From positions 1-56,136 of IMG/VR virus record IMGVR_UViG_3300042987_002630: a stretch of DNA of 56,136 nucleotides; one strand, 5' to 3'. The stretch comes from a virus. The notes under the pieces were generated by a model. It saw nothing but the letters and a program-made list of their open reading frames with translations, was not told the origin of the DNA and ran no database searches. A program made the position numbers and the translations under genes. Below, in pieces: positions 6,814-56,136 of this stretch; position 1 is the stretch's first letter, and the number at the start of each line of letters is the position of its first letter.

Positions 6814-6818
6814 TCAAA

Positions 6819-8244: not shown

Positions 8245-8331
8245 TGTTCTTGGTCTCCTACGTGGCGTTCTAGGCCATACGGGGCGGGTGTGTGTTCCCC
8301 ATAAAACTGCAACTGTTGCAGCCATCAGGGT

Positions 8332-8339
8332 TATTTATA
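8332..8339 (-). promoter_or_regulatory. T4-type late promoter TATAAATA
   Basis: A perfect TATAAATA on the minus strand (within CTATAAATAACC) upstream of the two MGRPL structural genes. This is the core recognised by T4-type late sigma (gp55 homologue). Confidence 0.75.
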
Positions 8340-8412
8340 GAAAACTTGGCTCAACAGTTGAGTTTGTGAGCAAGATAACTATAATCAACAAACAAACTTT
8401 GAGTGATCACTG

Positions 8413-9628: not shown

Positions 9629-9649
9629 TCAATTAACCAGGAGCAAAAT

Positions 9650-9955
9650 ATGAGTACAATATTAAGCCAAATGTATGGGGTCACATCCAACCAACAGCCC
9701 ACATCATTATCGCGAGCCCATCCTCATTCTGTTCAATCAATGGGCAGGTATGTTCAATTGCAAGTGGAAAATCAACAAGTGTTGGTGGTGCATCCACAAG
9801 TAATTGACTCGCTTGTCAACACAATGAGAGAACAAGAAAGGATCATCCTGGATCTTAGGGATAGAATGATCAGGCTACAACAACAATGCACACAACAACA
9901 GAACCGTATTCTAAGGTTGGAAAACCAAACACAACAGGGAGGCATATTTGACTGA
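9650..9955 (+). CDS. small coiled-coil protein
   Basis: 101 aa with a good ribosome site (AGGAG, 6 nt before ATG). Residues 50-95 form a heptad-like glutamine/arginine/leucine-rich segment (MREQERIILDLRDRMIRLQQ), predicted as a coiled coil. Function unknown. It overlaps the next gene by 8 nt, so the two are probably co-translated. Confidence 0.65.
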   Translation: MSTILSQMYGVTSNQQPTSLSRAHPHSVQSMGRYVQLQVENQQVLVVHPQVIDSLVNTMREQERIILDLRDRMIRLQQQCTQQQNRILRLENQTQQGGIFD

Positions 9956-10553: not shown

Positions 10554-10594
10554 CATGCATTCATATTATTCATCCTAGCAGGAAACAACATCAC

Positions 10595-11056
10595 ATGCGC
10601 AAAAAAATGAAATTCCACAAGAGTGAAAATATTCTAGGCCACACATGTGAAATTGTTCAGGGAGATCAAAAATTTGTTTTGGTAAGCCATTCAGAAACAC
10701 CTGTGTTGGCGCAAAAAGCAAGGGTCAAATCTGGGTATTATTGGTTTAGGGCTCCCAGGATCACACTTGAGCAGTTGGAAATCACAGCACAAAATCTAGC
10801 ACACATGGAGCACAAGTTTGAATTTGATATTTGGATGCACACACAAGATCCACACAACCCACAGTTTGATGCCAGCTTGAAGATCAGCGATCCCACAGAT
10901 GCAGCTACCTTTGTGTGGGCTCATACTGAAATGTGGATCAAATGGGACAGTGAACAGGAAAAATCCTTGCTGTCGCAACACAAGACTGTCAAGGTTGGCA
11001 AAAACAAGGATGGCAGTGTGCGTGTGACTGTCACAGTTTCCACATTGGAAGACTGA
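10595..11056 (+). CDS. hypothetical protein
   Basis: 153 aa, soluble, no recognised motif. Start at 10595 (ATG, with AGGA 11 nt upstream) is chosen over the upstream frame opening at 10547; the ATG at 10607 is also possible. The sequence is rich in aromatic and charged residues (KSGYYWFRAP, FEFDIWMHTQD, WAHTEMWIKW) and ends in an alternating basic/beta strand (GSVRVTVTVS). It converges with the minus-strand gene ending at 11064. Confidence 0.55.
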   Translation: MRKKMKFHKSENILGHTCEIVQGDQKFVLVSHSETPVLAQKARVKSGYYWFRAPRITLEQLEITAQNLAHMEHKFEFDIWMHTQDPHNPQFDASLKISDPTDAATFVWAHTEMWIKWDSEQEKSLLSQHKTVKVGKNKDGSVRVTVTVSTLED

Positions 11057-11063
11057 CCTGGTC

Positions 11064-11444
11064 CTAGGAGGTTTTCACCAGTTGAACTGTGCGTTTTTTG
11101 CTGCGCCTGTTGATCAGTGTGTCCAAGCTGGGCATGGGCCCACTGATCCAACACACCTCTTTGGTGCTGAATATTTTCAATTGTGATTTGAATGCATGAA
11201 ATTTTTGCCCCAAAAACACATTGATGGGCAATTGTCTATTGCTTTCCCACCAATAAAGTTCACCGCAACACATGAACTCCTGTTTCTGTTCTCTGGTCAT
11301 AGTTTGTTCAATAACATACATGTGTACAAAATTGCTATCACTGTTTTGTACTATGCCCCAATACTCTTTGCCCAGGTATTGAATATGAGTGAGATAGGGC
11401 CACTGCTGTGGATCATTGGTTGGTTGTGAAAGAGATTGTGTCAT
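11064..11444 (-). CDS. conserved hypothetical protein of T4-like phages
   Basis: 126 aa, a single compact beta-rich domain (HIQYLGKEYWGIVQNS, RQLPINVFLG, SGPMPSLDTL) with a basic tail (RRSKKRTVQLVK). This pattern is familiar from small cyanophage/pelagiphage proteins of unknown function. A late-promoter core (TAAATA, minus strand, 11450-11455) lies immediately upstream, so expression is probably late, divergent from the structural gene at 11500. Confidence 0.65.
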   Translation of the reverse strand: MTQSLSQPTNDPQQWPYLTHIQYLGKEYWGIVQNSDSNFVHMYVIEQTMTREQKQEFMCCGELYWWESNRQLPINVFLGQKFHAFKSQLKIFSTKEVCWISGPMPSLDTLINRRSKKRTVQLVKTS

Positions 11445-11449
11445 TTGTA

Positions 11450-11469
11450 TATTTAGAATGATCTAAATA
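11450..11469. promoter_or_regulatory. divergent late promoters (TAAATA cores)
   Basis: The minus strand carries CTAAATA (core 11450-11455) 6 nt before the ATG at 11444. The plus strand carries CTAAATA (11463-11469) about 30 nt before the structural gene at 11500. Both match the T4-type late core. Confidence 0.55.
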
Positions 11470-11499
11470 GGCACAGACATTTTTTATTGCGTTGTTGGC

Positions 11500-12324
11500 A
11501 TGACATTGATCACCCTCTACAGTTACCATTTGCCCTATCAGTTGAGCTTGACCAATCATGGTGCACCGCCACATTTGAACAGACCCATGTACAATTATCC
11601 TCAAAAAGTATACAAAAACAATTACAATATTATTGACCTGGTTGTCAGAGACAATGATCGCAAACCTGTTCGTTTGATTGATGCGCATTTGCAGGTGATT
11701 GTATCCAACCAACAAACTGGATTGACTGTTTTGGAAAAACCAGTACAGGTGACTGATGAAATTCAAGGCAGAGCACAAATGATCATCACAGCAAGTGAAA
11801 CTGAAAATTGGACATTGGGTGGTTATCAATTCAACGTCAAACTCACTGATCATCATGGACGCCAGGAATTTTTGTATGTGGATATCAACAATCAAATTGG
11901 CGGAACTTTTGAACTTTTGCCAAGTGTGGGTGGAGATCTTGTGCCTGCACAAACCATTCTGGGCAGTGCATTCACACCCACCAGTTACAACTGGGACACA
12001 AATGATGACTGGTATGTGAGCGGCGCATTGGTTGCACAAAATCCTGTGGGTGCCCATCAAGGAAATTATACTATAGCTGTATATACAAACCTTTGGCAAG
12101 GCACATTTAGAATTCAGGCCAGTTTACAAAATCTAGCTCCCACGGAACGCAGTTGGTTCTGGATTCCATTGGTGGCTGCACAACCTGATTTAGAAATTGA
12201 TCTGCAAACGTCCAGTGTGTTCAGTTTGGGGTTTACAGTCAATGCACAATGGATCAGATTTATGTATAAACCTCACCCAAACAATCTGGGTAGTTTTGAC
12301 AAGGTTGTATATAAAATAATCTAA
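11500..12324 (+). CDS. virion structural protein, BppU-like N-terminal domain
   Basis: 274 aa, beta-rich. Residues 40-130 (IIDLVVRDNDRKPVRLIDAH..VIVSNQQTG...YQFNVKLTDHHGRQEFLYVD) follow the pattern of baseplate upper-protein domains, in which an immunoglobulin-like fold opens with VxDxxxKPVxL. The C-terminal half is another beta domain (NYTIAVYTNLWQGTFRIQASL). It is preceded by a late-promoter core at 11463-11469. Probably baseplate or tail; no catalytic motif seen. Confidence 0.65.
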   Translation: MTLITLYSYHLPYQLSLTNHGAPPHLNRPMYNYPQKVYKNNYNIIDLVVRDNDRKPVRLIDAHLQVIVSNQQTGLTVLEKPVQVTDEIQGRAQMIITASETENWTLGGYQFNVKLTDHHGRQEFLYVDINNQIGGTFELLPSVGGDLVPAQTILGSAFTPTSYNWDTNDDWYVSGALVAQNPVGAHQGNYTIAVYTNLWQGTFRIQASLQNLAPTERSWFWIPLVAAQPDLEIDLQTSSVFSLGFTVNAQWIRFMYKPHPNNLGSFDKVVYKII

Positions 12325-13363: not shown

Positions 13364-14650
13364 ATGTCAGCAACTACTAGGGATTACAGCGAAGACGTAC
13401 AAAAAATGCTGATCAGTGTATTGTTGAGTGATGAGGAAATTTTTGCACGTTGCCAAAACATTCTACAGGCCAAATATTTTGTCAACAAATTGCGTCCAGT
13501 TGTGAGATTCATGATGGAATTTGCCAACCAATACAGAGCTGTGCCCAAACATGAGCAGATCAAGGCACAATTTGGTATTGAATTGGACAAAATGGATCGA
13601 ATAAACCCAGCCCTACAACAAGCATTTTTGGATCAGATCGAAGAATTTTGTAAGAACAGAGCTTTGGCTGATGCTGTGTTGAGTGCAGGTGATTTGATTG
13701 CCAAGGGTAATTATGGAGAAGTTGAAAAGCGAGTGAGAGAAGCCATTTTGGTGGGTCTCAACAGCAATATTGGTATCCGTTATTATGATGATCCTAGGGA
13801 AAGGTTGATGCGTATCAAGAATAGTAATGGACAGGTCAGCAGCAGTTGGAAGAGTGTGGATAGCAAGCTGTATGGTGGGGTGAATAGAAAAGAACTGACG
13901 ATCTGGTGTGCTGGCAGTGGTGGCGGCAAGAGTGTGACCATGCAAAACATGGCTGTAAACATGAGCCGTGCCGGGTTGAATGTGATCTATATCAGTCTAG
14001 AACTCAGTGAAGAAATGATCAGCATGCGACTGGACAGCATGGTGAGCGGTGTTGCCACACATGAAATCTTCAAACGACTGGATGATGTGGAAATCAAGGT
14101 TTTATCAGCAGGCAAACGAGCGTCGGATCTACATGTGAGACAGATGCCACAGGGATCAACAACAAATGATTTGCGTGCATATCTCAAGAATTATGAAATT
14201 GAAACTGGACACAAATGTGATGTGTTGATTGTGGATTATTTGGATCTAATGTTTCCCAACAACAAGAAAATTGATGTCAGCAATTTGTATATCAAGGATA
14301 AATATATAACGGAGGAGTTGAGAGGTTTAGCCATGGAAAAAAACATGGTGGCCATCACAGCTTCTCAGTTGGGACGTTGTTTGACCATGGATACCCAAAT
14401 TGAACTGGCTACAGGACAAATCACCACTATTGATCAAATTCAAGAGGGTGATTTCATACAAGGATCCCAAGGTCCGGTTCAAGTCTTGAATGTGTTTCCA
14501 AGGGCCAAACAACTTGTGTTCAAAATTAAGACCAAAAGTGGCAAAGAGATACAAGCTACTGCGCAACACAAATTCCCAACTACAAACGGAACAAGGAGCT
14601 TGGAACATGGACTCGCAATTGGACAAAAACTCTATATCAAAAATACTTGA
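13364..14650 (+). CDS. gp41: replicative helicase gp41, N-terminal part fused to split-intein N half
   Basis: 428 aa: extein residues 1-338, then IntN residues 339-428. The extein is the DnaB-family helicase: N-terminal helical domain, Walker A GSGGGKSVTMQN (about residue 185), Walker B VLIVDYLDL, and the motif ending AITASQLGR where the intein begins. Joined by trans-splicing to the product of 16102-16617, the helicase would be 469 aa (T4 gp41 is 475). The stop codon comes after the IntN domain, and a homing endonuclease gene fills the gap between the two halves. This is the fractured gene arrangement first described for metagenomic phages. Confidence 0.93.
   Translation: MSATTRDYSEDVQKMLISVLLSDEEIFARCQNILQAKYFVNKLRPVVRFMMEFANQYRAVPKHEQIKAQFGIELDKMDRINPALQQAFLDQIEEFCKNRALADAVLSAGDLIAKGNYGEVEKRVREAILVGLNSNIGIRYYDDPRERLMRIKNSNGQVSSSWKSVDSKLYGGVNRKELTIWCAGSGGGKSVTMQNMAVNMSRAGLNVIYISLELSEEMISMRLDSMVSGVATHEIFKRLDDVEIKVLSAGKRASDLHVRQMPQGSTTNDLRAYLKNYEIETGHKCDVLIVDYLDLMFPNNKKIDVSNLYIKDKYITEELRGLAMEKNMVAITASQLGRCLTMDTQIELATGQITTIDQIQEGDFIQGSQGPVQVLNVFPRAKQLVFKIKTKSGKEIQATAQHKFPTTNGTRSLEHGLAIGQKLYIKNT
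14378..14647 (+). other. split intein IntN of gp41 (90 aa)
   Basis: It begins with Cys339 (CLTMDTQIELATGQITTIDQ, block A) after extein SQLGR. Block B-like AQHKFPTT carries the TxxH-type histidine. It ends KLYIKNT-stop. Sequence and size are very close to the published gp41-8 split intein family, which also interrupts gp41 at this position. Confidence 0.92.
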
Positions 14651-16100
14651 GGAACTCTGGACTAGGAATCAAGGACGGGGTGCTCAATCAACTCTAATAT
14701 CCAAACATAAACACATCACGCACATATTAGACACCACTTATCCTACGATAACGCACTATGGGCAAAAGGCTTATTTGTGGGTCAACAACATGAACTCACC
14801 GCCTTGCTGTTATTGTGGCCAATATGCTAACTTCAAAAGTTATTCAAGAGGTTACGGGGATTATTGCAGCATTAAGTGCATGAGCAACTGCCCTACCACA
14901 TTGACCAAACGATCAAATACTTTGCTGGAAAAGTTCGGAGTCACACATTTCTCAAAATCTACATTATACAAAGACAAATTCAAGCAAACATGCTTGGATC
15001 GATATGGGGTTATCAATCCTGGTCAGATCCAACACCTTAAGGTCAAACGGGCAAAAGCGAAGAGCCAAACATTTATCACAAATTTGATTGCTAACAATTC
15101 TCAATATCTTCCCAAGTTCTCAGTTATAGATTTTGGTGGTGTGTATAAATCAACTGATTGGCATTGTACAACATGTGAATCTCAATTCACCCTACCCAAC
15201 CTCATTCGAGGAGTCCAATGCCCAGAGTGCTATCCCCAGCAAGCACTTGTGGGTGAAAGCAAACAAGAAATACAAATTGCCGAATGGATTCAATCTCTTG
15301 GGGTAACAATGGAACGGAAAAATAGGCAGATATTGGGAAAAAAAGAAATTGATATTTGGCTACCAGACAACAATTTGGCAATAGAAATATGTGGCTCGTA
15401 TTGGCATAGCGACAGGTTTGTTCCCAAACAATATCATCAAGACAAAATGATCAATTGTGAGGACAAGGGCATACAACTGATCACGTTGTTTGATTTTGAC
15501 CTAAAAAATTCTGAGATAGTCAATGACATGTTGCTTCACAAATTAGGTCGTAATAATAAACCTAAATTCAATCCACGTCAGGGAGTCCTATTAGAAATAG
15601 ACGGGCACCAAGCCAAACAGTTCAACATTCAATATCATTTGCGTGCGCATGCAGCAGCCACATATCATTTTGGTTTCTTTGTGGATAGAGAACTAATTGC
15701 GGTGTCGAGTTGGAGCAAATCACGATTTGATAAACAAAGCAACGCTCTTGAATTAGTGAGGTTGTGTAGCAAATATCCTGTTCGAGGAATCCTTGGTAAG
15801 ATGACATCTCATGTTAGTAGAACATTGGGATATGAAACTATACATTCATATGTTGATTTGCGATATGGACAAGGCAACAGTTATTTGGCATCTGGATATA
15901 ATTTGGTTCGAACAACCAAACCAGGATATTGGTATGTTGATCAAACTTGTACATGTTATCACAGGTCATCATTCACAAAATCTAAACTTAAAAATATGAT
16001 CAATCACAACGTCAATAAGACTGAATTTGAAATAATGGATGATCTAGGGTATCATAGAATATGGGATTGCGGAAACAGATTATATGAGTGGAGAGCTTGA
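14607..16100 (+). CDS. Vsr-like homing endonuclease between the split-intein halves
   Basis: 497 aa. Start at 14607 has AAGGAG upstream and lies 44 nt inside the IntN reading frame. Domains: an N-terminal zinc cluster (CCYCGQ, CSIKCMSNC), RYGV-type DNA-binding repeats, a second CxxC/CxxC ribbon (CTTCESQF, CPECYP), a Vsr/EDxHD nuclease core (KEIDIWLPDNNLAIEICG, WHSD, QLITLFDF), and the same C-terminal domain as the uvsW-linked endonuclease (WSKSRFD, LELVRLCS, YVDLRYGQG, HRIWDCG). Its stop overlaps the ribosome site of the C-terminal gp41 gene. The two Vsr-like enzymes of this phage are clearly homologous over their full length but diverged. Confidence 0.88.
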   Translation: MDSQLDKNSISKILEELWTRNQGRGAQSTLISKHKHITHILDTTYPTITHYGQKAYLWVNNMNSPPCCYCGQYANFKSYSRGYGDYCSIKCMSNCPTTLTKRSNTLLEKFGVTHFSKSTLYKDKFKQTCLDRYGVINPGQIQHLKVKRAKAKSQTFITNLIANNSQYLPKFSVIDFGGVYKSTDWHCTTCESQFTLPNLIRGVQCPECYPQQALVGESKQEIQIAEWIQSLGVTMERKNRQILGKKEIDIWLPDNNLAIEICGSYWHSDRFVPKQYHQDKMINCEDKGIQLITLFDFDLKNSEIVNDMLLHKLGRNNKPKFNPRQGVLLEIDGHQAKQFNIQYHLRAHAAATYHFGFFVDRELIAVSSWSKSRFDKQSNALELVRLCSKYPVRGILGKMTSHVSRTLGYETIHSYVDLRYGQGNSYLASGYNLVRTTKPGYWYVDQTCTCYHRSSFTKSKLKNMINHNVNKTEFEIMDDLGYHRIWDCGNRLYEWRA

Positions 16101-16101
16101 C

Positions 16102-16221
16102 ATGGATGAATTTGAAGAAGATGAAATTGTTGAAATTGAAATAGTTGGTTGGCTAGACACTATAGATATTGAAGTATCTGATGATCATTTGTTTTTGGCC
16201 AACGGCATCCTTACCCACAAT
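16102..16221 (+). other. split intein IntC of gp41 (40 aa)
   Basis: Block F (DTIDIEVSDDHLFLANG) and block G (ILTHN) precede Ser as the +1 residue. An acidic N-terminus (MDEFEEDE) faces IntN, as expected for charge-driven association of natural split inteins. Confidence 0.92.
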
Positions 16222-16617
16222 AGTTCAGTCAACGAACTGGAACATGATCACAGTCACATTGCTGGTGGTATCAGCAAGATTCAAACTGCGGATAATGTGA
16301 TCAGTATTTTAGCCACCCCAGCCATGAGAGAACGTGGCCAATATCAATTCCAGTTTTTGAAAACTCGCAGCAGCAGTGGTGTGGGCAGCAAGATCATCAT
16401 GGGTTATGATCAGGAAACTTTGCGTATTTTTGATCTTGAAGAAGGGGATGCAGACGTGCCAGTTAAAACGGCCCAAGACATGTTGGCTGATTTGCGCAGA
16501 AAAAACAACACAAGTGCAAATAATGATCAAGACAACAAAAAACCGGACCAACCTTCAGCTGATCCGGTCAAAAGTGTGGCCACTCTACAAGAGTTGACCC
16601 GATTGATCAAACGTTAG
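16102..16617 (+). CDS. gp41: replicative helicase gp41, C-terminal part fused to split-intein C half
   Basis: 171 aa: IntC 1-40, then extein from Ser41. GGAG lies 9 nt before the ATG at 16102, which I prefer to the ATG at 16084. The extein continues the DnaB fold: SSVNELEHDHSHIAGGISKIQTADNVISI and the arginine-finger region FLKTRSSSGVGSKI, then a charged tail. With the N part it restores a complete gp41. The gene converges with the minus-strand gene ending at 16614 (4-nt overlap). Confidence 0.92.
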   Translation: MDEFEEDEIVEIEIVGWLDTIDIEVSDDHLFLANGILTHNSSVNELEHDHSHIAGGISKIQTADNVISILATPAMRERGQYQFQFLKTRSSSGVGSKIIMGYDQETLRIFDLEEGDADVPVKTAQDMLADLRRKNNTSANNDQDNKKPDQPSADPVKSVATLQELTRLIKR

Positions 16618-19317: not shown

Positions 19318-20573
19318 GCCCTGGATGGATAGCGGCTTTTTGAATAGATTATATAAATAGATTTATGAAACAGCGATATCGATACAGGATTTATCCAACC
19401 CCTGCTCAAGAACAACAGATGCGTTCTGTGGGCGGAGCAGTGCGATATCTATACAATCATTTCCTACGTGTAAACATTGATGAATATCAATTGAACAAAA
19501 AATTTGTTTGGCAGTTTGACATGTGCAAACAACTGACTGAATTGAAGAAACACAACAAATGGTTATCAGATACCTACAGTCAAGTACTACAACAAAGCAT
19601 AAGTGACTTGGATACAGCACTGAAAAATATGAAAAAGACAGGTGCTGGATTCCCCAAATTCAAAAGCAAATGCACAACACCTGTTAGCTTTAGATATCAA
19701 CAAAATGTGAGAGTTGACAACAACAAGCTATATCTACCCAAGATTGGTCACATCAAGATTGTATTGCATAGGGATTTGCCCACATTCAAGGGTGTGACTG
19801 TAACTCAAACACCACGTGGTTGGTATGCAAGCTTTGTGGTGGATGTGGCAGAACTGCCATTGGTTCAGAACATAACCAACCCGGTGGGGGTGGATGTCAA
19901 CAGCAAATTCACGGCATTGAGCACTGGTGAATTGATTGCCAATCCCAAGCCATTGGGGAAGAAACAAGCACGTATCCGACTGCTACAACGCAAACTATCC
20001 AGAAAACAAAAAGCAAGTAGAAATAGAACCAAAGCAAAACAAAAACTGGCACGAACTCACGATCTGGTTCGCTGCCAAAGAACTAACCATATACATCAGA
20101 CAAGTGCGAGAATAGCCAAATCACATGACCTGGTGTCAGTTGAAACACTGAAAATTGATGAGATGAGACGCAAGAGCAAGCCCATAGCCAAGTGTATAGC
20201 TGATGCTGGTTGGGCTATGTTGATTGGTGCATTGGCCTACAAGTGCCAAAGGCAAGGCCATCATCTCATTCGTATCAATCAGTGGCTACCCAGCAGCAAG
20301 ACCTGCTCCTCATGTGGTGCACGCAAAAGTCACATGGATCTCAAGCAAAGAGAATATCATTGTGATCATTGCGGAATAACTCAGCACAGGGACACTAATG
20401 CAGCCATCAATATTCGCAATTGGGGACATCAACAATGGACAATAGATCATGCAGGGCAGGAACTGCCCCAAGCGCCTGTGGATGTGATGGCAGATATTCT
20501 CGCCAATTGGGGTCAGATATCAGCCACTACGATGAAGCAGGAAGCCACAGCCCTTTAGGGCGTGGTAGTTCAC
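19288..20573 (+). mobile_element. TnpB-only IS200/IS605-like element, complete copy (copy A)
   Basis: About 1286 bp with left end CTCCCGCCGCGG and a CCAGG/CCTGG hairpin region, directly preceded by TTAC (19284-19287), the insertion tetranucleotide known for IS608. The right end carries the CCAC-GCCC/GGGC-GTGG hairpin and terminates TAGTTCAC. It contains tnpB only. Comparison with the copies at 25594, 33690, 54775 and 55200 defines the ends. The last roughly 110 bp, conserved in all copies, overlap the tnpB 3' end and are the expected place of the guide (omega) RNA. A T4-type late promoter TATAAATA (19352-19359) lies inside the element 6 nt before the tnpB ATG. Confidence 0.85.
19365..20558 (+). 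CDS. tnpB: TnpB, RNA-guided nuclease of copy A
   Basis: 397 aa, a normal TnpB length. N-terminal MKQRYRYRIYPTPAQEQQM is the usual OrfB start. RuvC-I Asp in NPVGVDVNSKF; RuvC-II Glu in DLVSVETLKI; zinc ribbon CSSC...CDHC; RuvC-III Asp in QHRDTNAAINI. All catalytic and metal residues are in place, so the nuclease should be active. With no TnpA in the window, its likely role is to cut empty sites and so retain the element, or to act as a homing nuclease among phages. The TATAAATA promoter just before it suggests expression at late times. Confidence 0.93.
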   Translation: MKQRYRYRIYPTPAQEQQMRSVGGAVRYLYNHFLRVNIDEYQLNKKFVWQFDMCKQLTELKKHNKWLSDTYSQVLQQSISDLDTALKNMKKTGAGFPKFKSKCTTPVSFRYQQNVRVDNNKLYLPKIGHIKIVLHRDLPTFKGVTVTQTPRGWYASFVVDVAELPLVQNITNPVGVDVNSKFTALSTGELIANPKPLGKKQARIRLLQRKLSRKQKASRNRTKAKQKLARTHDLVRCQRTNHIHQTSARIAKSHDLVSVETLKIDEMRRKSKPIAKCIADAGWAMLIGALAYKCQRQGHHLIRINQWLPSSKTCSSCGARKSHMDLKQREYHCDHCGITQHRDTNAAINIRNWGHQQWTIDHAGQELPQAPVDVMADILANWGQISATTMKQEATAL

Positions 20574-31920: not shown

Positions 31921-33024
31921 ATGGATAGTTTGACTGTGGGTATTTTGGGAGGTGGACAATTGGCCCAAATGCTTTGTTTACAAGCACACAACTTGGGATT
32001 GCACACATTGGTTGTCAGTGATCAAGAACAATCTTGTGCAAAATCAGTTTGCACTCAGTTTGTACATGCTTCATGGCACGACATTGATAAAATTAAAAAG
32101 TTTGTTACACAAAGTGATGTAATTGCATTTGAATTTGAAAATATACCACAACACATTTTGGACCAGCTGCCTCCCAACAAGGTGTACAACAACAGCCATG
32201 CACTGCATGTTTGCCAAAATCGTATTAGAGAAAAACAATTGTGCAATCAACTGTCCATCAAGACTGCTGAATGGGTCATAGTAGAAAATTTACAGCATGC
32301 CCACAGTGTGGCAGAACAAATGGATTACCAGTGTGTGTTTAAAACAGCCATGTGGGGCTATGATGGCAAGGGGCAAATAAGTGTAAGCAGGCCACAAGAT
32401 GTTGCACAGGTAGAGTCTTTGTTACAACATCCACATGGTATCATATGTGAAAAATTGGTGCCTTTTGATTATGAAATCAGTATCGTTGTGGCAAGAGATA
32501 CCCAATCGAAATTGCAATTTTTTGACCCAAGTGTCAATTATCATGTGAATCATGTGTTGGATCAAAGTATTGTGGATGACAGTATTCCTCACGTTCTAGT
32601 GGCTCAGGCCAAGACCTATGCACAAATGCTGGCTCAACAACTACAGATAGTAGGATTGTTGGCAGTGGAGATGTTTGTGGTGAATGATCAAATTTTGGTC
32701 AATGAACTGGCCCCACGTCCTCACAACAGTGCCCATTGGAGCCAGGATGCTTGTATGCACAGTCAATTTGATTTGCATTTACGAGCTCTTGCGTGCCTGC
32801 CTTTGGTGAGCCCCATGCGCACACACAATGTTGTCATGCAAAATTTGGTTGGTACAAACAGCATGCAGCGACTGTTGGCAAGCCACTCCACAACCCAAGC
32901 TATTCCACACTGGTATCACAAAAATCAAGCCCTGGAAGGAAGAAAAATGGGTCATGTAAATTGTTTGTATGATATCATGCAACCCTTGTATGCTCTACAA
33001 GGCAGTGTGAATGTGGGATTTTGA
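31921..33024 (+). CDS. purK: PurK, 5-(carboxyamino)imidazole ribonucleotide synthase
   Basis: 367 aa, full length for PurK. The enzyme carboxylates AIR to N5-CAIR using ATP and bicarbonate in de novo purine synthesis. Motifs: N-terminal VGILGGGQLAQMLCLQA, FEFENIP, the ATP-grasp lysine region FKTAMWGYDGKGQ, and the metal-site signature NELAPRPHNSAHW. An auxiliary metabolic gene, probably boosting purine nucleotides together with NrdA/B. No PurE partner is visible in the window, so the host enzyme would have to take the product. The overlapping downstream gene is a nuclease, not a purine gene. Confidence 0.92.
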   Translation: MDSLTVGILGGGQLAQMLCLQAHNLGLHTLVVSDQEQSCAKSVCTQFVHASWHDIDKIKKFVTQSDVIAFEFENIPQHILDQLPPNKVYNNSHALHVCQNRIREKQLCNQLSIKTAEWVIVENLQHAHSVAEQMDYQCVFKTAMWGYDGKGQISVSRPQDVAQVESLLQHPHGIICEKLVPFDYEISIVVARDTQSKLQFFDPSVNYHVNHVLDQSIVDDSIPHVLVAQAKTYAQMLAQQLQIVGLLAVEMFVVNDQILVNELAPRPHNSAHWSQDACMHSQFDLHLRALACLPLVSPMRTHNVVMQNLVGTNSMQRLLASHSTTQAIPHWYHKNQALEGRKMGHVNCLYDIMQPLYALQGSVNVGF

Positions 33025-33716: not shown

Positions 33717-34917
33717 ATCTGGACCTTGGGCGGCTGATGGTTGAATTTTATAAATAGATTTATGAAACTGCCATATCTCTATAGGAACCATCAATTCCCA
33801 CAACAGGACCTACAGATGCAGTCTGTGGGCAATGCAGTGCGATACCCCTACAATCATTTCCTCCAGGTTAACATTGATGAAAATCAATTGATCAAAAAGT
33901 TTTTTTGGCAAGCGGACATGTGCAAGCACTTGACCCAGTTGAACACAGCCCACAAGTGGACAAATCCAACGTACAGTCAGGTAATACAACCATGCATAAG
34001 TGACTTGGTTTGTGCACTGAAAGACATAGGTGCTGGTTTACCCAAATTTAAGAACAAATATATTACACCTGTTATTTTTAGATGTCCACAAAATGTCTCA
34101 ATCACTAACGATAGATTATATCCAGCCAAGATTGGTCACATCAAGATTGTATTGTATGGAGATTTGACCTCATTCAAAGGTGTGGCTGTCATACAAACAC
34201 CATCACGTGTTTGGTTGGCAAATTTTGTAGTAGATGGGTTGGAACAGCCCTTGGTGGAAAACATAACCCAGCCAGTGGTTGGGGACGTCAACAGCAAATT
34301 AACCATCCTATCAACTAGTGTAATATTGTCCACGCACAAGCCATTAGTGAAAAAACCATCAGGTATCCGACTGCTACATGGCAAACTATCAAGCAAGCAA
34401 AACGCAGGTAAGGATAACATCCAAGACAAAAACAAGCAGCTGAGGACTCATGATCTGGTTCGCTGCCCAAGATCAAACCATCTATCTCAGACCAGTGCGA
34501 GAATAGTCAAATCACATGACCCAAGCTCAGTTGCAACACTCAATGCAGATGCTGGTTGGACTGTATTAGCTGGTTCATTAGCCTACAAGTTGCCTAGGCC
34601 AGGGCACCTTGTTAGACGTATAAATCAGTGGTTACTAAGCAGCAAACCCTGTGCTGCAACTGTTGCACACAAAAGTCACTGGAATCTCACGCAACGAGAA
34701 TACTATTATGATGATTGCACAATCACACAGCACAGGCACTTGAATGCAGAGGTCAGAATCAGCAACTGGGAACATCAACAGTGCAGTATGGGTCATGCAG
34801 GGTTGGAAATGCTCCAAGAGCATGTGGATGTGGTAACACACAATCTAACTGATTGGGGTCTGATGTCAAGCACGACGTTAGAACAAGAAGTCACAGCCCC
34901 TAGGGCGTGGTAGTTCA
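33690..34917 (+). mobile_element. degenerate full-length TnpB element (copy C)
   Basis: About 1228 bp. The left end CTCCCACGGAAAGCCGG is a mutated form of the consensus, with TTAC 3-6 nt before it. An internal late promoter TATAAATA is retained (33749-33756). The right end keeps the hairpin (CCCCTAGGG) and TAGTTCA. Numerous substitutions relative to copies A and E show that it is the oldest copy, yet its reading frame is open throughout. Confidence 0.8.
33762..34913 (+). CDS. nuclease-dead TnpB with intact reading frame
   Basis: 383 aa from ATG 33762. It aligns along its whole length with the copy A TnpB, but the RuvC-II segment SVETLKIDEM has become SVATLNADAG with a small deletion (catalytic Glu lost). 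The zinc-ribbon cysteines CSSC are CAAT, the second CDHC is DDC (only one Cys left), and the RuvC-III HRDTNA is HRHLNA (Asp lost). Only the RuvC-I Asp survives. No stop or frameshift has appeared despite heavy divergence. It is either simply decaying, or kept as an RNA-binding protein without cutting, as in TnpB-derived repressors (TldR). The next gene is a tail fibre. Could also be listed as a pseudogene. Confidence 0.7.
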   Translation: MKLPYLYRNHQFPQQDLQMQSVGNAVRYPYNHFLQVNIDENQLIKKFFWQADMCKHLTQLNTAHKWTNPTYSQVIQPCISDLVCALKDIGAGLPKFKNKYITPVIFRCPQNVSITNDRLYPAKIGHIKIVLYGDLTSFKGVAVIQTPSRVWLANFVVDGLEQPLVENITQPVVGDVNSKLTILSTSVILSTHKPLVKKPSGIRLLHGKLSSKQNAGKDNIQDKNKQLRTHDLVRCPRSNHLSQTSARIVKSHDPSSVATLNADAGWTVLAGSLAYKLPRPGHLVRRINQWLLSSKPCAATVAHKSHWNLTQREYYYDDCTITQHRHLNAEVRISNWEHQQCSMGHAGLEMLQEHVDVVTHNLTDWGLMSSTTLEQEVTAPRAW

Positions 34918-37079: not shown

Positions 37080-38009
37080 ATGACTGCTAGATCTGGTGAG
37101 CCTATCTTTGTTGAAAAAAGAAATGGCGACAAAGAACCACTTAATATCGACAAAATTCATAGACAGGTCATGTGGGCCACTGAGGGCCTGAGTGGTGTAA
37201 GTGCCAGTGAAGTAGAGATCAAAACTCAACTACAATTTTACAACCGAATCCGAACTGTGGACATTCAAGAAACTTTGATCAAGGCTGCTGCCGATCTGAT
37301 CAGCTTGGATGCACCCAACTATCAATTTGTTGCAGCTAGATTGGTCAATCATCACATACGCAAAGAAGCTTATGGTGATTTTGCTGTTCCAGATCTTTTG
37401 CCTCATGTGAAAAAAGTAGTGGAGGCTGGATTTTATACCACAGAATTGCTGGAATGGTACACACCTGAAGAGTTTGACATCCTGGACACCTATATTGATC
37501 ATACTAGAGATTTTGATCTCACATTTGCTGCCATGGAACAATGGCGAGGCAAATATCTGGTGAAAAATCGTGTGACAGGTCAATTGTTTGAAACTCCTCA
37601 AATGGCCTATATGTTGATTGCTGCCACATTATTTCATAACTATCCCAAACACAGCCGACTCAAATGGGTCAAAGATTTTTATGACAGCATCAGTTTGCAT
37701 GATATTAGCTTGCCCACACCCATCATGGCAGGTGTGAGAACCACACAAAAACAATTCAGTTCATGTGTGTTGATTGAAAGTGATGATAGCTTGGATAGTA
37801 TCAGTGCTGTGAGCCATGCTATTGTACGTTATGTTAGCCGTAAAGCAGGTATCGGTTTGAACGTTGGTCGTATTCGGGCAATTAATTCACCCATTAGAGG
37901 TGGGGATGCCTATCACACAGGTGTGACTCCTTTTATCAAGTTGTTCCAGGCATCAGTCAAGAGTTGTGCTGATGAAAACACATGGGTTGAAATTATTGAT
38001 GAAGAATAA
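37080..38009 (+). CDS. nrdA: ribonucleotide reductase NrdA, N-terminal part ending in a 14-residue split intein
   Basis: 309 aa: extein 1-295, IntN 296-309. Class Ia large subunit: ATP-cone IFVEKRNGDKEPLNIDKIHR, then the ten-strand barrel start, with KQFSSCVLIESDDSLDSI containing the first redox cysteine (E. coli C225). The extein stops at FIKLFQASVKS; the next residue in uninterrupted NrdA is the Cys of the second gene (T4: VKSCSQGG). AAGGGA lies 7 nt before the ATG. The reading frame ends in TAA after 14 intein residues, and the rest of the protein is encoded by a second gene 47 nt downstream with its own ribosome site. Confidence 0.92.
   Translation: MTARSGEPIFVEKRNGDKEPLNIDKIHRQVMWATEGLSGVSASEVEIKTQLQFYNRIRTVDIQETLIKAAADLISLDAPNYQFVAARLVNHHIRKEAYGDFAVPDLLPHVKKVVEAGFYTTELLEWYTPEEFDILDTYIDHTRDFDLTFAAMEQWRGKYLVKNRVTGQLFETPQMAYMLIAATLFHNYPKHSRLKWVKDFYDSISLHDISLPTPIMAGVRTTQKQFSSCVLIESDDSLDSISAVSHAIVRYVSRKAGIGLNVGRIRAINSPIRGGDAYHTGVTPFIKLFQASVKSCADENTWVEIIDEE
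37965..38006 (+). other. very short split-intein N fragment in NrdA (14 aa)
   Basis: CADENTWVEIIDEE-stop, beginning with the nucleophilic Cys296 right after extein VKS. The complement is the 131-aa IntC of the next gene. The break lies within block A, an atypical N-terminal split site like the AceL/VidaL-type inteins, not the usual endonuclease position. Confidence 0.85.
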
Positions 38010-38056
38010 TCACCCTAGAGACATTCAGACAACCATTCAACCAAAGGCATTCAAAC

Positions 38057-38449
38057 ATGAAGACTAAAAGAATACAACTCAAAGATTTGAAACCAGGGAT
38101 GCGAATCAAGAGTTTTGATGGAAACAATCATGTGTTTCAAAAAGTAGTGGATGTTTGGCAGACAATTGTGGACCCTCAAGACCGCCTGATTCTCACCTTC
38201 ACCAACGGTACCAAGCTCAAATGTAGCGCAAGGCATCCTATTATGGTGCTAGAGGATGATCAATTGATCCAAGTGATGCCCAAAGAACTAACACAATTTC
38301 ATGAAATTGTAACTGACACTGGCACCTGTTATTTGGAATCCCTGGAATCTGATTCCTCAGATGTTCGATATCTGGATCTGGAAGTGGAAAACACAAACAC
38401 TTTTTTTGCAAGTGCGGAAAAAGCCGACCCCTTGATTTTAACACATAAT
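38057..38449 (+). other. split-intein C fragment in NrdA (131 aa)
   Basis: MKTKRIQLKDLKPGMRIKSF continues block A; KLKCSARHPIMV is block B with the conserved His; RYLDLEVENTNTFFAS and LILTHN are blocks F and G, followed by Cys. There is no endonuclease domain, so homing would depend on an enzyme in trans or has been lost. Confidence 0.87.
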
Positions 38450-40333
38450 TGCAACCAAGGTGGTGTGCGATCCGGCGCCGCCACAGCTTATTTCCCATTC
38501 TGGCATCTTGAATTTGATGATCTAATTGTGTTGAAAAACAACAAGGGCACAGAAGAAAATCGTGCCAGGCACATGGATTATGGTGTGCAATTCAACAAAC
38601 TAGCCTACGAACGGTTGCTGTCAGGTGGTAACATCACACTGTTCAGTCCCAGTGATGTGCCTGGCTTGTATGATGCTTTTTTTGCTGACCAAAACCTATT
38701 CCAAGAATTGTATGAGAAATATGAATCTGATTCCAAGATCCGCAAAAAAACTATCAGGGCAGTGGATTTGTTCACCACATTCATGAACGAACGCAAGAAC
38801 ACTGGCCGTGTGTATATAATGAATGTGGATCATGCCAACACACATGGTTCATATATAGAACATTTGGCTCCTATCAGACAGAGCAATCTGTGCCTCACAG
38901 GTGATTCACAACTTAACATTCAGCACACAGATGGTATTGAGAAGTCCATGGACTTGGCTAGCTTTGTGCAAGCCTGGAACTATGGTGACATGAATAATGT
39001 GAAGGTACGCAGCTACAACACAGAAACTGGAGAGTTTGTGTGGAGTCAAGTGAGTGCTGCTGCCTGGACTGCCACAGTAACTGAACTTGTGGAGATTGAG
39101 GATGACAAGGGCAACGTGATCCGTTGCACTCCTGATCATCAAATCTGGACCAAGAACAGGAGCTGGGTGATGGCCAAAGATTTGGCAGAAACTGATCTGG
39201 TATGTACTGACACAAATCTTACACAAGACAGATACGTGGGACTCAAATTTCACAAAATTCAAGTGGAACCAACTCGTGTGTATGATATCACTGTACCAGA
39301 AACTTCTGCATTTGTGGCCAACAATGTGGTGGTTCACAATTGTGCAGAAATATCTTTGCCCACTCTACCACTTCAAAGCATTGACGATGAAAGCCCTGCT
39401 GTGGCACTCTGTACTCTTGCAGCTATAAATTGGGGCAAGATACGTGAACCCAAGGATTTTGAAAAGCCTTGCCGGCTGGCAGTAAGAGCATTGGATGCAC
39501 TCTTGGACTATCAGGAATATCCAGTCAAGGCAGCAGAGGCACACACCAGGAAATTTCGCCCACTGGGAATAGGCATTATCTCTTTGGCGTACTGGATTGC
39601 CAAGATGGGTTTCAAATACAGTGACGACAGCGCACTTGCCTCCTTGGATGAATATGCTGAGGCCTGGAGTTATTATATGATAAGAGCCAGTGTAGATTTG
39701 GCCAAGGAACGCGGTGCACCTGAGGGGTCAAAATTAACCAAATACCATGAGGGTATTGTGCCCATTGACACACGCAAACGAGATACTGATGAACTGGTGG
39801 GCTATGCTGAAAGATTGCCCTGGGATAAATTGCGCGAAGATCTCCGAGCATATGGCATTCGCAACACAACACTGTTGGCTTGCATGCCCAGTGAGGCATC
39901 CAGCTTGATCAGCAATTCCACCAATGGTATCGAACCACCCCGTAGCTTGATTTCCGTCAAACAAAGCAAAGATGGCGTGATGAAACAAGTGGTTCCAGAA
40001 TATCGCCGACTGAAAAACCGTTATGAACTGCTTTGGGATCAAAAAAGTCCTGAAGGATATCTCAAGATTGTGGCAGTTCTACAGCGTTGGATGGATCAAA
40101 CCATCAGTGCCAACACCAGTTACAATCCCAATTTCTATCCTGATGGACAGTTGCCCATGAGTGAAATGCTACGTCATATGCTGCTGATGTACAAATGGGG
40201 TATAAAAACCGCGTACTATTTCAACGTATTGGATGGGCAAGAAGAATTGAATGTTGACAAGCTGATGCTGGAACAAAATTCAGATCTCCTAGACAAAACA
40301 GATCCAGCAGAATGCGAAGCTTGCACCATTTGA
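38057..40333 (+). CDS. nrdA: ribonucleotide reductase NrdA, C-terminal part, with IntC and a second intein
   Basis: 758 aa: IntC 1-131, extein 132-278, mini-intein 279-428, extein 429-758. AAAGG lies 11 nt before ATG. Extein landmarks: CNQGGVRSGAATAYFPFWH, FSPSDVPGLYDAFF, HLAPIRQSNL joined to CAEISLPT (N437-L-C439-x-E441 of E. coli, the thiyl radical site), ALCTLAAINWG (C462), SNATNG-type glycine-rich loop (ISNSTNGIEPPR), and the C-terminal ECEACTI redox pair. Mature NrdA would be 295 + 477 = 772 aa (T4: 754). Trans-splicing at VKS/C and cis-splicing at SNL/C are both needed to give an active enzyme. Confidence 0.92.
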   Translation: MKTKRIQLKDLKPGMRIKSFDGNNHVFQKVVDVWQTIVDPQDRLILTFTNGTKLKCSARHPIMVLEDDQLIQVMPKELTQFHEIVTDTGTCYLESLESDSSDVRYLDLEVENTNTFFASAEKADPLILTHNCNQGGVRSGAATAYFPFWHLEFDDLIVLKNNKGTEENRARHMDYGVQFNKLAYERLLSGGNITLFSPSDVPGLYDAFFADQNLFQELYEKYESDSKIRKKTIRAVDLFTTFMNERKNTGRVYIMNVDHANTHGSYIEHLAPIRQSNLCLTGDSQLNIQHTDGIEKSMDLASFVQAWNYGDMNNVKVRSYNTETGEFVWSQVSAAAWTATVTELVEIEDDKGNVIRCTPDHQIWTKNRSWVMAKDLAETDLVCTDTNLTQDRYVGLKFHKIQVEPTRVYDITVPETSAFVANNVVVHNCAEISLPTLPLQSIDDESPAVALCTLAAINWGKIREPKDFEKPCRLAVRALDALLDYQEYPVKAAEAHTRKFRPLGIGIISLAYWIAKMGFKYSDDSALASLDEYAEAWSYYMIRASVDLAKERGAPEGSKLTKYHEGIVPIDTRKRDTDELVGYAERLPWDKLREDLRAYGIRNTTLLACMPSEASSLISNSTNGIEPPRSLISVKQSKDGVMKQVVPEYRRLKNRYELLWDQKSPEGYLKIVAVLQRWMDQTISANTSYNPNFYPDGQLPMSEMLRHMLLMYKWGIKTAYYFNVLDGQEELNVDKLMLEQNSDLLDKTDPAECEACTI
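38891..39340 (+). other. contiguous mini-intein in NrdA next to the radical cysteine (150 aa)
   Basis: It starts CLTGDSQLNIQ (block A) after extein RQSNL. Block B CTPDHQIWTKNRSW. Blocks F and G: RVYDITVPETSAFVANN and VVVHN, then Cys, which is the catalytic thiyl cysteine of NrdA. This is the same insertion site as the known NrdA-2 split intein, but here the two halves are fused and there is no endonuclease. Confidence 0.92.
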
Positions 40334-44443: not shown

Positions 44444-44472
44444 TTGACATCCTGATCACATTGTCATAAATT
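44444..44472 (+). promoter_or_regulatory. sigma70 promoter of the tmRNA gene
   Basis: A consensus TTGACA (44444-44449), a 17-bp spacer and TAAATT (44467-44472) predict a start near 44479, at the first hairpin of the tmRNA precursor. Confidence 0.6.
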
Positions 44473-44478
44473 ATATCA

Positions 44479-44846
44479 GTTGCTGTTTGTGTGTGACCAG
44501 TCACACACAAGAAAGTTAGACAAATAAGCTGGACAAGACGGGGTTTTCGAATACCCCCGGCTCCACCAGCAAACACGCGGGAAGCCCAATGTGTCTATAA
44601 ATCGGGCGTAATATGTGTGACACCAGTCCCGTGTGTTTGCTTGTGGGGCCGACAGGGATAGATTGACAGTAGTAAGGTCAAAACTAGGTAATCGGTAAGA
44701 TACGACCGCTCGTAAGAGATTTGTTCATCATTATAATGGCCAACGACAACGTTGCCCTTGCAGTGGCTGCCTAAACAGCATTGCAGCGTGTGGTTCACGT
44801 GGTAACAGAACGAACCCGGAAAGGGCGGCATTGCCGCCCTTTCTGT
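44479..44846 (+). ncRNA. ssrA: two-piece (circularly permuted) tmRNA
   Basis: tmRNA rescues stalled ribosomes and tags the nascent chain for proteolysis. Gene order is permuted: the acceptor piece comes first, ending in a T-arm (GGGG..TTCGAAT..CCCC) and CGGCTCCACCA at 44558-44568. The coding piece follows, starting GGGGCCG at 44645-44651. These two pair as a 7-bp acceptor stem with G3-U70, the alanine identity wobble. The excised spacer (44569-44644) is closed by a 14-bp helix (44569-44582 with 44627-44640). The tag frame GCC-AAC-GAC-AAC...GCT-GCC-TAA (44739-44774) encodes ANDNVALAVAA, with the ANDN start and hydrophobic VAA end of ClpXP-degraded tags. A 5' hairpin (44487-44510) precedes the acceptor piece. 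The T-stem has one irregularity (an extra T or a T/C mismatch). A proteobacterial origin is likely. Confidence 0.9.
44821..44846 (+). terminator. terminator of tmRNA, possibly shared with the convergent gene
   Basis: AAGGGCGGCATTGCCGCCCTTT forms a compact GC-rich hairpin followed by CTGTC. It lies 18 nt from the stop of the convergent minus-strand gene, so it can serve both strands. Confidence 0.75.
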
Positions 44847-44863
44847 CAAAAATGTTTGCCATT

Positions 44864-45711: not shown

Positions 45712-45735
45712 CATGTGTTGATTAGGAGGTCTCGC

Positions 45736-46449
45736 ATGTTGGATAATAGTTCAGTTGTGTATGTGACAGCTCACAACAATCCACAGGTGATGGATGGTTT
45801 GAGATTGTTCATGCGTTCAGTTTACAATCAGATGGTTGCTGCCTTGGCTATAAGTGGAGTCAGTGCTTGGTTGACCATGATAATCCTGGGCCCTTGGCTC
45901 AGTGGGTGGTTTGCCTTGCTTTTGGCTTTGGTTCCATTGCCATTTGTGTTTGTTCTCAGTTATGGCATATATAATTTTCAATACAATACAGCCAAACTTT
46001 TGTTTGTACTTTTTGCCATCAGCATGGGAATGAGCATGAGTTTGTTGTTCCTGATGTTTACAGCAGAAAGCATTGTTGTGGTATTTTTTATCACTGCTGC
46101 CACGTTTGCAAGTGCCAGTATTGTGGGATACACCACAAAACGTGATCTCAGCGGCTGGGGAAATTTTCTCATCATGGGGTTGGTGGGAATTTTGATTGCC
46201 AGCATTGTTAACATTTGGTTGATGAGCAGCATGCTGAGTTTTGTAGTCAGTGTGTTGGCAGTGTTGATTTTTACTGCACTCACTGCATGGGACACACAAA
46301 ACCTCAAAAACGATTATTTGACCAATGGAGATGTGTTGGGTTATGACAGCCCTGAACGCAGTGCCTTGTATGGCGCACTCAGCTTGTATCTCAATTTTGT
46401 GAACATTTTCCAGGCGTTGTTGAGTCTACTGGGGGATAGAGACGATTGA
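45736..46449 (+). CDS. Bax inhibitor-1/YccA-family membrane protein
   Basis: 237 aa from ATG 45736 (AGGAGG 7 nt upstream; the frame opens earlier at a GTG without a ribosome site). It has a short cytoplasmic N-terminus, then about seven hydrophobic segments, including MVAALAISGVSAWLTMIILG, ISMGMSMSLLFLMFTAESIV, LIMGLVGILIASIVNIWLM and FVVSVLAVLIFTALTAWDTQ. It ends in YGALSLYLNFVNIFQALLSLLGDRDD, the conserved BI-1 C-terminus. E. coli YccA of this family binds and inhibits the membrane protease FtsH. A phage copy may protect phage proteins from FtsH, or affect calcium or pH homeostasis. Own promoter and terminator. Confidence 0.88.
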   Translation: MLDNSSVVYVTAHNNPQVMDGLRLFMRSVYNQMVAALAISGVSAWLTMIILGPWLSGWFALLLALVPLPFVFVLSYGIYNFQYNTAKLLFVLFAISMGMSMSLLFLMFTAESIVVVFFITAATFASASIVGYTTKRDLSGWGNFLIMGLVGILIASIVNIWLMSSMLSFVVSVLAVLIFTALTAWDTQNLKNDYLTNGDVLGYDSPERSALYGALSLYLNFVNIFQALLSLLGDRDD

Positions 46450-52292: not shown

Positions 52293-53807
52293 ATGACCAC
52301 TTTTGCCCATGCACTGGAACTGTCGCAATCCATGCCTGTAGCCACAACTGCCAATGGTATGCCAACCAATGCCAGCACAGGTAATGCAGTTTTGAACTGT
52401 TTCTTCATTTTGGGCTCCAGTCGTGGCCAAGACATAAGTGCTCAATTTCAGGCAGCATTGGATGAAAATCCTGTGTTGGCTGTCAAAGCACTTTTTTGGG
52501 CACGTGACGTGCGCGGAGGTGCAGGGGAACGCGAAACCTTCCGGAAATTGCTTACTGTGCTGGAAAAGCATGATGGGGAAATGACTAGACGCGTGATCCC
52601 TTTGATTGCCGAATATGGTAGGTATGATGACCTTCATGTATTCCACACTGATCTAGCCCAAAAACTAGCAATCCAAACACATGCAGATGCTATCCGTTCG
52701 GGCAATGGTTTGGCAAGCAAATGGGCGCCACGCAAAGGTCCCATTGCCAATCAGCTACGTAAAGCTCTTGGTATGGATCCCAAAACCTATCGCAAAACCA
52801 TTGTGGGTTTCACAAAAGTTGTGGAAACTCAGATGTGTGCCCAACAATGGGATAGTATCAACTATAGTCATGTTCCTAGTGTGGCTAGTGCTCGTTATCA
52901 AAAATCTTTCTCTAGACATGATCCTGTGCGTTATGCTGAGTTCAAAGCATCAGCTCTCAAAGGAGCAGTCAAAATCAATGCTGGCACCCTGTTCCCCTAC
53001 GATGTGCTCAAGAGTGTGCGTAGTGGTGATCCTGTTGCTGCACTGGCTCAGTGGGAGGCACTGCCCAACTACCTGGGTGACAATGGATTTATCCTGCCTG
53101 TGATTGACGTCAGCGGCAGCATGAACAGCCGAGTGGGCGATGCCAAGAGCACGCTCTCCTGTATGGATGTGGCCATCAGCCTGGGCCTTTACCTGGCGGA
53201 CAAGCAGAAGGGTGCGTTCAAGGACATGTTCCTCAACTTCCACACCAACAGCAAGATCCACCACCTCCAGGGTAACCTGCTGGAGAAGATCAACCAGATC
53301 CAGCGCAGTGACTGGGGCGGAAGCACAAACCTGGAAAGTGCCTTCAAGGAGATCCTGCGTGTGGCAGTCGGCAGCAATGTTCCCCCAAATGAAATGCCAC
53401 GATACCTTCTGGTAATTACAGATCTAGGATTTGATCCCAGCAGCAACAATGCAGGTCAAGGAGCGATGGCAATGGCAAAAGATATTTTTGCTAGGCATAA
53501 TTATTCGTTGCCAAATGTTATCTGGTGGAACGTAGCACATAGGCCAGGTGGATACGGTGGTGATAATAATTTTCCTGTTACTCAGCATGAGAGTGGTTCA
53601 GCCCTGGTATCAGGATTCAGTCCCTCTATCGTCAAAAGCGTCTTGAGCTCCACATCGATTACTCCTTATGACATAATGCTAGAAACTCTTGACAATCCTC
53701 GGTATGAACTTGTAGGTAATGTAGTAGACCATTACCAGAAAGAAAATTTGAACAGTAGCAAAATCCAAGGATCATGCCATGATGTTTTTAAAACTCAATG
53801 TCAGTAA
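52293..53807 (+). CDS. DUF2828/TROVE-like protein with vWA domain
   Basis: 504 aa. The helical-repeat N-terminus contains ALFWARDVRGGAGERETFR and IPLIAEYGRYDD, the hallmark of DUF2828, a family allied to TROVE/Ro60 RNA-binding proteins. The C-terminal von Willebrand A domain carries a complete MIDAS: PVIDVSGSMNSR (D-x-S-x-S), WGGSTN (Thr site) and ITDLGFD (Asp). Ro60 binds Y RNAs and misfolded RNA in RNA quality control; an analogous phage role is possible but unproven. Codon use changes sharply to GC-rich codons between about 53040 and 53390 and back again, indicating a recombinant internal segment. Ribosome site GAAGGAT. Confidence 0.78.
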   Translation: MTTFAHALELSQSMPVATTANGMPTNASTGNAVLNCFFILGSSRGQDISAQFQAALDENPVLAVKALFWARDVRGGAGERETFRKLLTVLEKHDGEMTRRVIPLIAEYGRYDDLHVFHTDLAQKLAIQTHADAIRSGNGLASKWAPRKGPIANQLRKALGMDPKTYRKTIVGFTKVVETQMCAQQWDSINYSHVPSVASARYQKSFSRHDPVRYAEFKASALKGAVKINAGTLFPYDVLKSVRSGDPVAALAQWEALPNYLGDNGFILPVIDVSGSMNSRVGDAKSTLSCMDVAISLGLYLADKQKGAFKDMFLNFHTNSKIHHLQGNLLEKINQIQRSDWGGSTNLESAFKEILRVAVGSNVPPNEMPRYLLVITDLGFDPSSNNAGQGAMAMAKDIFARHNYSLPNVIWWNVAHRPGGYGGDNNFPVTQHESGSALVSGFSPSIVKSVLSSTSITPYDIMLETLDNPRYELVGNVVDHYQKENLNSSKIQGSCHDVFKTQCQ

Positions 53808-55199: not shown

Positions 55200-56136
55200 G
55201 TGAACTACCACGCCCTAAAGGGCTGTGGCTTCCTGCTTGATCGTATTGGCTGACAGCAGACCCCAATGAGTGAGAATATCTGTTATCACATCCACAGGCG
55301 CAGGGGGCAGTTCCTGCCCTGCATGATCTATTGTCCATTGTTGATGTCCCCAGTTGCGAATATTGATGGCTGCATTAGTGTCCCTGTGCTGAGTTATTCC
55401 GCAATGATCACAATGATATTCTCTTTGCTTGAGATCCATGTGACTTTTGCGGGTGCCACATGCACTACAGGTCTTGCTACTGGGTAGCCACTGATTGATC
55501 TTGATGAAATGGTGGCCTTGGCGTTGGCATTTGTAGGCCAATACACCAATCAACATAGCCCAACCCGCATCTGCTATGGCCTTGGCTGTGGGCTTGCTCT
55601 TGCGTCTCAGCTGATCAATTTTCAGTGTTTCAACTGACACCAGGTCATGTGATTTGGCTATTCTCACACTTGTCTGATGTATATGGTCCAGTCTTTGGCA
55701 GAGAACCAGATCATGGGTTCTTGCCAGTCGTGTTTTTGCTTTCAGTCTATTCCTACTTGCTTTTTGTTTTCTGGATAGCTTGCGTTGTAACAGTCGGATA
55801 CGTGCTTGTTTCTTCACCAATGGCTTGGGATTTGGAACTAGCTCACCAGTTGATAGTGCTGTGAACTTGCTGTTGACGTCCACACCCACTGAATTGGTTA
55901 TGTTTTGAACCAATGGCAGTTCCAAGACATCAACCACAAATGAGGCATACCAACCACGTGGTGTTTGAATCACAGTCACACCCTTAAACTTGGGAAGATC
56001 TCGATGGAGTACAATCTTGACGTCTCCAATCTTGGGTAGATATAGCTTGTTGTTGTCAACTCTCACGTTTTGTGGATATCTAAAGCTAACAGGAGTTGTG
56101 TATTTGCTTTTGAATCGTGGGAATCCAGCACCTGTC
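55200..56136 (-). mobile_element. TnpB element, right part, continuing past the window edge (copy E)
   Basis: The right end TAGTTCAC (minus strand) begins at 55200. It is tail-to-tail with copy D, leaving only 54 bp between the two right ends. The left end is outside the window. Confidence 0.85.
55215..56136 (-). CDS. tnpB: TnpB, RNA-guided nuclease, partial (runs off right edge)
   Basis: About 307 codons, open to the window edge (the upstream codons read AGFPRFKSKYTTPVSFRYPQ, so the ATG near 56066 is internal). RuvC-I Asp in NSVGVDVNSKF, RuvC-II Glu in DLVSVETLKID, zinc ribbon CSAC...CDHC, and RuvC-III HRDTNA are all intact. Very close to copy A by eye (differences such as KIDQLRRKSKP versus KIDEMRRKSKP). 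It could provide TnpB in trans for copies B and D. Confidence 0.93.
   Translation of the reverse strand, partial: TGAGFPRFKSKYTTPVSFRYPQNVRVDNNKLYLPKIGDVKIVLHRDLPKFKGVTVIQTPRGWYASFVVDVLELPLVQNITNSVGVDVNSKFTALSTGELVPNPKPLVKKQARIRLLQRKLSRKQKASRNRLKAKTRLARTHDLVLCQRLDHIHQTSVRIAKSHDLVSVETLKIDQLRRKSKPTAKAIADAGWAMLIGVLAYKCQRQGHHFIKINQWLPSSKTCSACGTRKSHMDLKQREYHCDHCGITQHRDTNAAINIRNWGHQQWTIDHAGQELPPAPVDVITDILTHWGLLSANTIKQEATAL

Follow-up and report, generated by a model that had tools for sequence, protein, structure and literature searches.

A complete circularly permuted tmRNA gene of the alphaproteobacterial type, carrying a rare bacterial tag, in a virus record related to jumbo phages

tmRNA is an RNA that frees stuck ribosomes and marks incomplete proteins for destruction. 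The locus analysed here raises the question whether a phage carries an intact two-piece form of this RNA, and how its tag peptide relates to those of bacteria. Phage-encoded tmRNAs are on record: a survey of 18,146 phage genomes found 402 with tmRNA, representing 133 unique structures, of which ARAGORN classed 53 as two-piece (PMC9004378), a 2020 paper described huge phages that have SmpB as well as tmRNA (PMC7162821), and a tmRNA is present in the related jumbo phage AP-J-162 of Sinorhizobium (PMC11242549). The window, i.e. the whole stretch of DNA that was analysed, is a 56-kb IMG/VR virus record (G000; 56,136 nt), for which an initial annotation had proposed a two-piece tmRNA with its own promoter.

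Judged by its sequence, the region 44444-44846 contains an entire tmRNA gene in the circularly permuted, two-piece arrangement typical of alphaproteobacteria. In a cmscan search against all Rfam models it was matched by tmRNA_permuted (RF04321; 78.2 bits, E 2.5e-13) and alpha_tmRNA (RF01849; 69.7 bits, E 5.1e-17), both above the curated gathering cut-offs of 47 and 50, respectively, and these were the sole above-cut-off matches in the 56 kb. The two-piece reading thus holds against two covariance models, and every element that had been named for it is present in the sequence. The model score is low, at 78 bits compared with 137-157 in bacteria with the same tag. ARAGORN, which had likewise been suggested as a check, reported nothing in the window, and among 14 tmRNAs of related phages it recovered nine, giving one of these a tag that is clearly incorrect; used by itself, it overlooks some phage two-piece tmRNAs (the window gene and five of the 14 relatives). 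The 8-nt T-loop described below may well be a reason for the miss in the window. No match to the tmRNA gene was obtained by blastn in 50,697 phage records, and the one-piece model RF00023 gave none above its cut-off in 14 related phage records.

All features of the gene lie on the + strand. The acceptor piece ends with the 3' strand of the acceptor stem, CGGCUCC, followed by discriminator A and an encoded CCA (44558-44568), and lies upstream of the coding piece, as had been proposed. The 5' part of the latter (44645-44738) comprises the acceptor 5' strand GGGGCCG (44645-44651), a D-loop-like region and the region preceding the resume codon. Both acceptor strands pair at 7/7 positions, including the G3-U70 pair of alanine tRNA-like ends. 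The intervening sequence of 76 nt (44569-44644), whose removal from the precursor is expected, extends the acceptor stem by a 15-bp helix; a spacer-closing helix had been noted before and is present, its length being 15 rather than the 14 pairs counted then. Spacer and acceptor stem together form one long hairpin with 15 unbroken pairs (-49.3 kcal/mol, z -6.54), and none of 200 shuffles was equally stable. The long spacer hairpin was considered as a special feature and rejected as such, since spacers measure 5-87 nt in 42 alphaproteobacteria; in related phages the range is 3-410 nt, with the extremes at 3 nt (L114, L115), 222 nt (L099) and 410 nt (L098, the tmRNA of Sinorhizobium phage Phosso). 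The L115 tmRNA has no encoded CCA. Close to the transcript's 5' end, an 11-bp hairpin (44486-44511; fold z -2.85) is located where RF01849 also has a hairpin. Towards the 3' end of the coding piece an element GGUUC...GUGGUAACAGAAC...GAACC (44792-44816) contains the conserved motif AACAGAA, which is also part of the RF01849 consensus; AACA(G/U)AA occurs in 13 of 15 phage tmRNAs, in one of them in the AACAUAA form. It is followed by a strong terminator-like hairpin of 13 bp with a short U-containing tail (44817-44845; z -4.22 for the fold of 44780-44850), at which a strict terminator scan made no call.

A sigma-70-like promoter, TTGACA-N17-TAAATT with 10/12 consensus matches, is located at 44444-44472. 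Since this single site is equalled by 3% of per-locus shuffles, the claim of an own promoter is carried by comparative evidence: in a strict scan a pair of promoter-like boxes was found 49-91 nt upstream of the acceptor strand at 12 of 15 phage tmRNA loci. The loci without a strict box pair are L114, where TTGACA is present and the -10 box is poorer, L100, where the tmRNA is situated among tRNA genes, and L099. A frequent form of the promoter, TATAAATA, is also similar to a T4 late promoter.

For comparison, related viral contigs were collected via the window proteins. Matches to RF04321 above its cut-off were obtained for 18 of 36 and for 3 of 46 related records, which include numerous short fragments, and fifteen different phage tmRNAs, window included, were aligned. 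The acceptor-stem pairing and the tag frame are both kept in the 14 related phage tmRNAs. The acceptor stems are fully paired in all 15 with compensatory changes, pairs 4, 5 and 6 occurring in 2, 4 and 3 forms; with shuffled partners a mean of 85% was paired, and full pairing was reached in 0 of 2000 trials. G3-U70 is invariant (15/15). In the tmRNAs of L113 and L135 (those of G028 and G057/G058) about 45 nt are missing from the part that joins the D-loop region to the resume codon, at the expected place of pseudoknot 1; all other tmRNAs compared have these nucleotides. The tags of the two, ANDNFAPSGYALAA and ANSNFAPSDYALAA, are still intact.

The genomic setting is that of a phage. The large topoisomerase subunit of the window shares 53-54% identity with its counterparts in two phages, Phosso of Sinorhizobium (469 kb) and Atu_ph07 of Agrobacterium (490 kb); the window is thus in all likelihood part of the genome of a related jumbo phage. 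The neighbouring genes encode NrdA, split by intein pieces, NrdB, glutaredoxin, an amidoligase, a Bax1-I protein and both topoisomerase subunits. In three relatives (G001, G010, G015) the tmRNA gene occupies the same position, between nrdB and the topoisomerase genes, with the p43209 homologue on one side and the Bax1-I/topoisomerase genes on the other. The Bax1-I family membrane protein (45715-46449) keeps its position in four related phage contigs. Further observations were made on the surrounding genes. Intein pieces interrupt a DnaB-like helicase gene (13364-16617), within which an endonuclease-like ORF is located (14490-16100), as well as nrdA (37080-40333); in the close relative L011 a topoisomerase gene (8001-11896) is interrupted likewise, and these genes resemble fractured genes with split inteins. 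By appearance, L011 also has homing-endonuclease-like ORFs on either side of its tmRNA gene (4774-5553 and 5802-6992). IS605 OrfB/TnpB-type genes are located at 19365-20558 and 55215-56066 of the window (both confirmed by Pfam), with an apparent diverged copy, judged by eye, at 33741-34913. In addition, the window encodes a PurK-like ATP-grasp protein (31921-33024) and a DUF2828/DUF7788 protein with a VWA-like C-terminal part (52293-53807), the latter kept in L007.

An intact phage-borne permuted tmRNA (ssrA) gene working in ribosome rescue is the account that we prefer and hold to be likely. Some tRNA-like features deviate from it. The T arm (44540-44557) consists of a 5-bp stem, GGGGU/ACCCC, and an 8-nt loop, UUUCGAAU, which is unique among the 57 tmRNAs compared, the 56 others having a loop of 7 nt; the resume codon is located 94 nt from G1, compared with 80-88 in most other tmRNAs, and in the alignment with related phage tmRNAs the D-loop is diverged. 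Together with the low Rfam scores, these deviations would also be compatible with partial decay of the gene or with a wrong base in the T run. In the former case the gene would be a once functional tmRNA in the process of losing its tRNA-like features, and the branch of the window in the tree is indeed very long (2.5). Such a pseudogene is nevertheless unlikely, as the acceptor stem pairs at 7/7 positions with a pair combination of its own, the tag frame, stop codon, CCA, spacer hairpin, 3' motif and promoter are all intact, and the additional T, which belongs to a stretch of four, might stem from a sequencing error. The odd TLD elements might also be expected of a dominant-negative or decoy tmRNA, which would occupy SmpB or alanyl-tRNA synthetase and thereby disturb host ribosome rescue; a tag-less form inhibiting host tmRNA is on record for phage DS6A (PMC11915505). 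A decoy needs no tag, however, whereas the tag frame here is intact and its sequence is that of a genuine bacterial tag, so that we regard this explanation as improbable.

The tag frame ANDNVALAVAA proposed in the initial annotation was confirmed at 44739-44774 (GCC AAC GAC AAC GTT GCC CTT GCA GTG GCT GCC TAA), with an alanine resume codon, a hydrophobic end in -AA and a stop codon TAA. A degenerate pattern of the tag had 13 matches in 84,980 species genomes, all of which fall in alphaproteobacterial tmRNA genes above the Rfam cut-off; 12 are exact and one (L143) has F for L, and 11 of the 13 come from records that bear the name Acetobacteraceae or Rhodospirillales. Among 385 genomes drawn across the class of the same-tag bacteria the tag was found in the centre genome alone. 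The tag is thus rare and genuinely bacterial. Its DNA, exact or degenerate, had no match in the viral contigs, a collection that may lack near relatives of the window, and the tag strings had none in the literature searched. The suggestion that the phage retags host proteins was left unsupported, and the tag is one that Acetobacteraceae/Rhodospirillales bacteria already use.

In a tree calculated without the tag columns, one branch (99/96) separates the 15 phage tmRNAs from the others, and the window pairs with the syntenic L104 (100/97), on long branches. Constraining the window with the same-tag bacteria fell narrowly short of rejection (p-AU 0.063); direct transfer from Acetobacteraceae is disfavoured by this tree. 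A bacterial ssrA on a wrongly assembled contig, or one acquired from the host very recently, would account for the letter-for-letter identity of the tag and for the lack of a formal rejection, but is very improbable given this grouping and the phage genes on both flanks, in an order common to three other phage contigs with a tmRNA there. We read the gene as a phage-lineage RNA body that carries a tag of the kind probably used by its host, and the tag provides a lead to a host within the Acetobacteraceae/Rhodospirillales. It is conceivable, if doubtful, that the tag was kept or made identical to that of the host group, the phage fitting its degron to the host protease. The Sinorhizobium tag, which we take to be ANDNYAEARLAA, differs from the Phosso tag ANDNVSTKVALAA, and this would count against a host-matched tag.

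SmpB was found in none of 19 phage records, fragments included, and in all of 10 bacterial controls; host SmpB therefore presumably serves. Clp genes are absent from the 56-kb window. As the window is a fragment, little can be concluded from its lack of SmpB and Clp genes. In jumbo relatives (L096, L137-L140) ClpX and ClpP are encoded; full-length ClpX is located at 9734-10993 of L096 (573.5 bits to NF003745), and clpX adjoins the topoisomerase genes in Phosso and Atu_ph07. The ClpX of Phosso scores above the NCBIfam equivalog cut-off. ClpP is encoded by Phosso and some relatives, and its occurrence does not regularly coincide with that of tmRNA: Atu_ph07 has ClpX-like and ClpP genes and no permuted tmRNA, while G015 has a tmRNA and no ClpP match. 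An obligate module of tmRNA and phage ClpXP was rejected as a rule. In the jumbo relatives, ClpX and ClpP could form with the phage tmRNA a tagging-and-degradation set in which only SmpB is missing.

From the gene anatomy, conservation and synteny demonstrated here and the absence of SmpB from the phage records searched, we infer the following course of events. Host RNA polymerase would most likely transcribe the tmRNA from its own promoter, and the precursor would fold with the acceptor stem and spacer as a long hairpin. After excision of the spacer by host tRNA-processing enzymes, the acceptor RNA and the coding RNA would be separate molecules joined through base pairing, and the tRNA-like end would be charged with alanine. 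Delivered to stalled ribosomes by host SmpB, the tmRNA would append ANDNVALAVAA to the unfinished protein, which a ClpXP-type protease would degrade, either that of the host or a phage ClpXP if encoded in the missing part of the genome. Extra ribosome rescue in infection is the probable benefit to the phage.

With the permuted tmRNA of alphaproteobacteria (RF01849; merged model RF04321, PMC11915505) the window gene shares the acceptor-first order, G3-U70, the encoded CCA, a tag starting with ANDN and ending with AVAA, and the 3' motif AACAGAA; it differs in being phage-borne, in its 8-nt T-loop and altered D-loop, and in a resume codon about 8 nt farther from G1. Some aquatic phages, among them the T4-like OM43 phage Melnitz, likewise have a two-piece tmRNA of the alphaproteobacterial type with its own promoter (PMC9004378). 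The phage lineage and tag context of Melnitz differ, and its tmRNA is reportedly under a glutamine riboswitch (PMC9004378), whereas the window had no Rfam riboswitch match. AP-J-162 (PMC11242549) and Phosso (PV764938) belong to the same broad jumbo-phage lineage as the window; Phosso also has a permuted tmRNA (113.3 bits), in contrast at another genome location, with the 410-nt spacer and its own tag. As in huge phages (PMC7162821), ribosome-rescue parts are supplied by the phage, but SmpB was not found in the lineage of the window.

Two-piece tmRNAs of phages are already published, and the window gene is a well-supported further example, not a new kind of system. New here is that a rare tag, confined in the species genomes searched to alphaproteobacterial tmRNA genes, is combined with an RNA body that groups with phage tmRNAs. 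If the tag mirrors that of the host, phage tags would be readable as host signatures and serve as a cheap host predictor, and the locus would offer a testable case of a virus adapting its degron to the host protease. Moreover, the comparative evidence indicates that jumbo phages of alphaproteobacteria often bring their own two-piece ribosome-rescue RNA, which in one jumbo sub-lineage is encoded at a fixed site beside DNA-synthesis genes.
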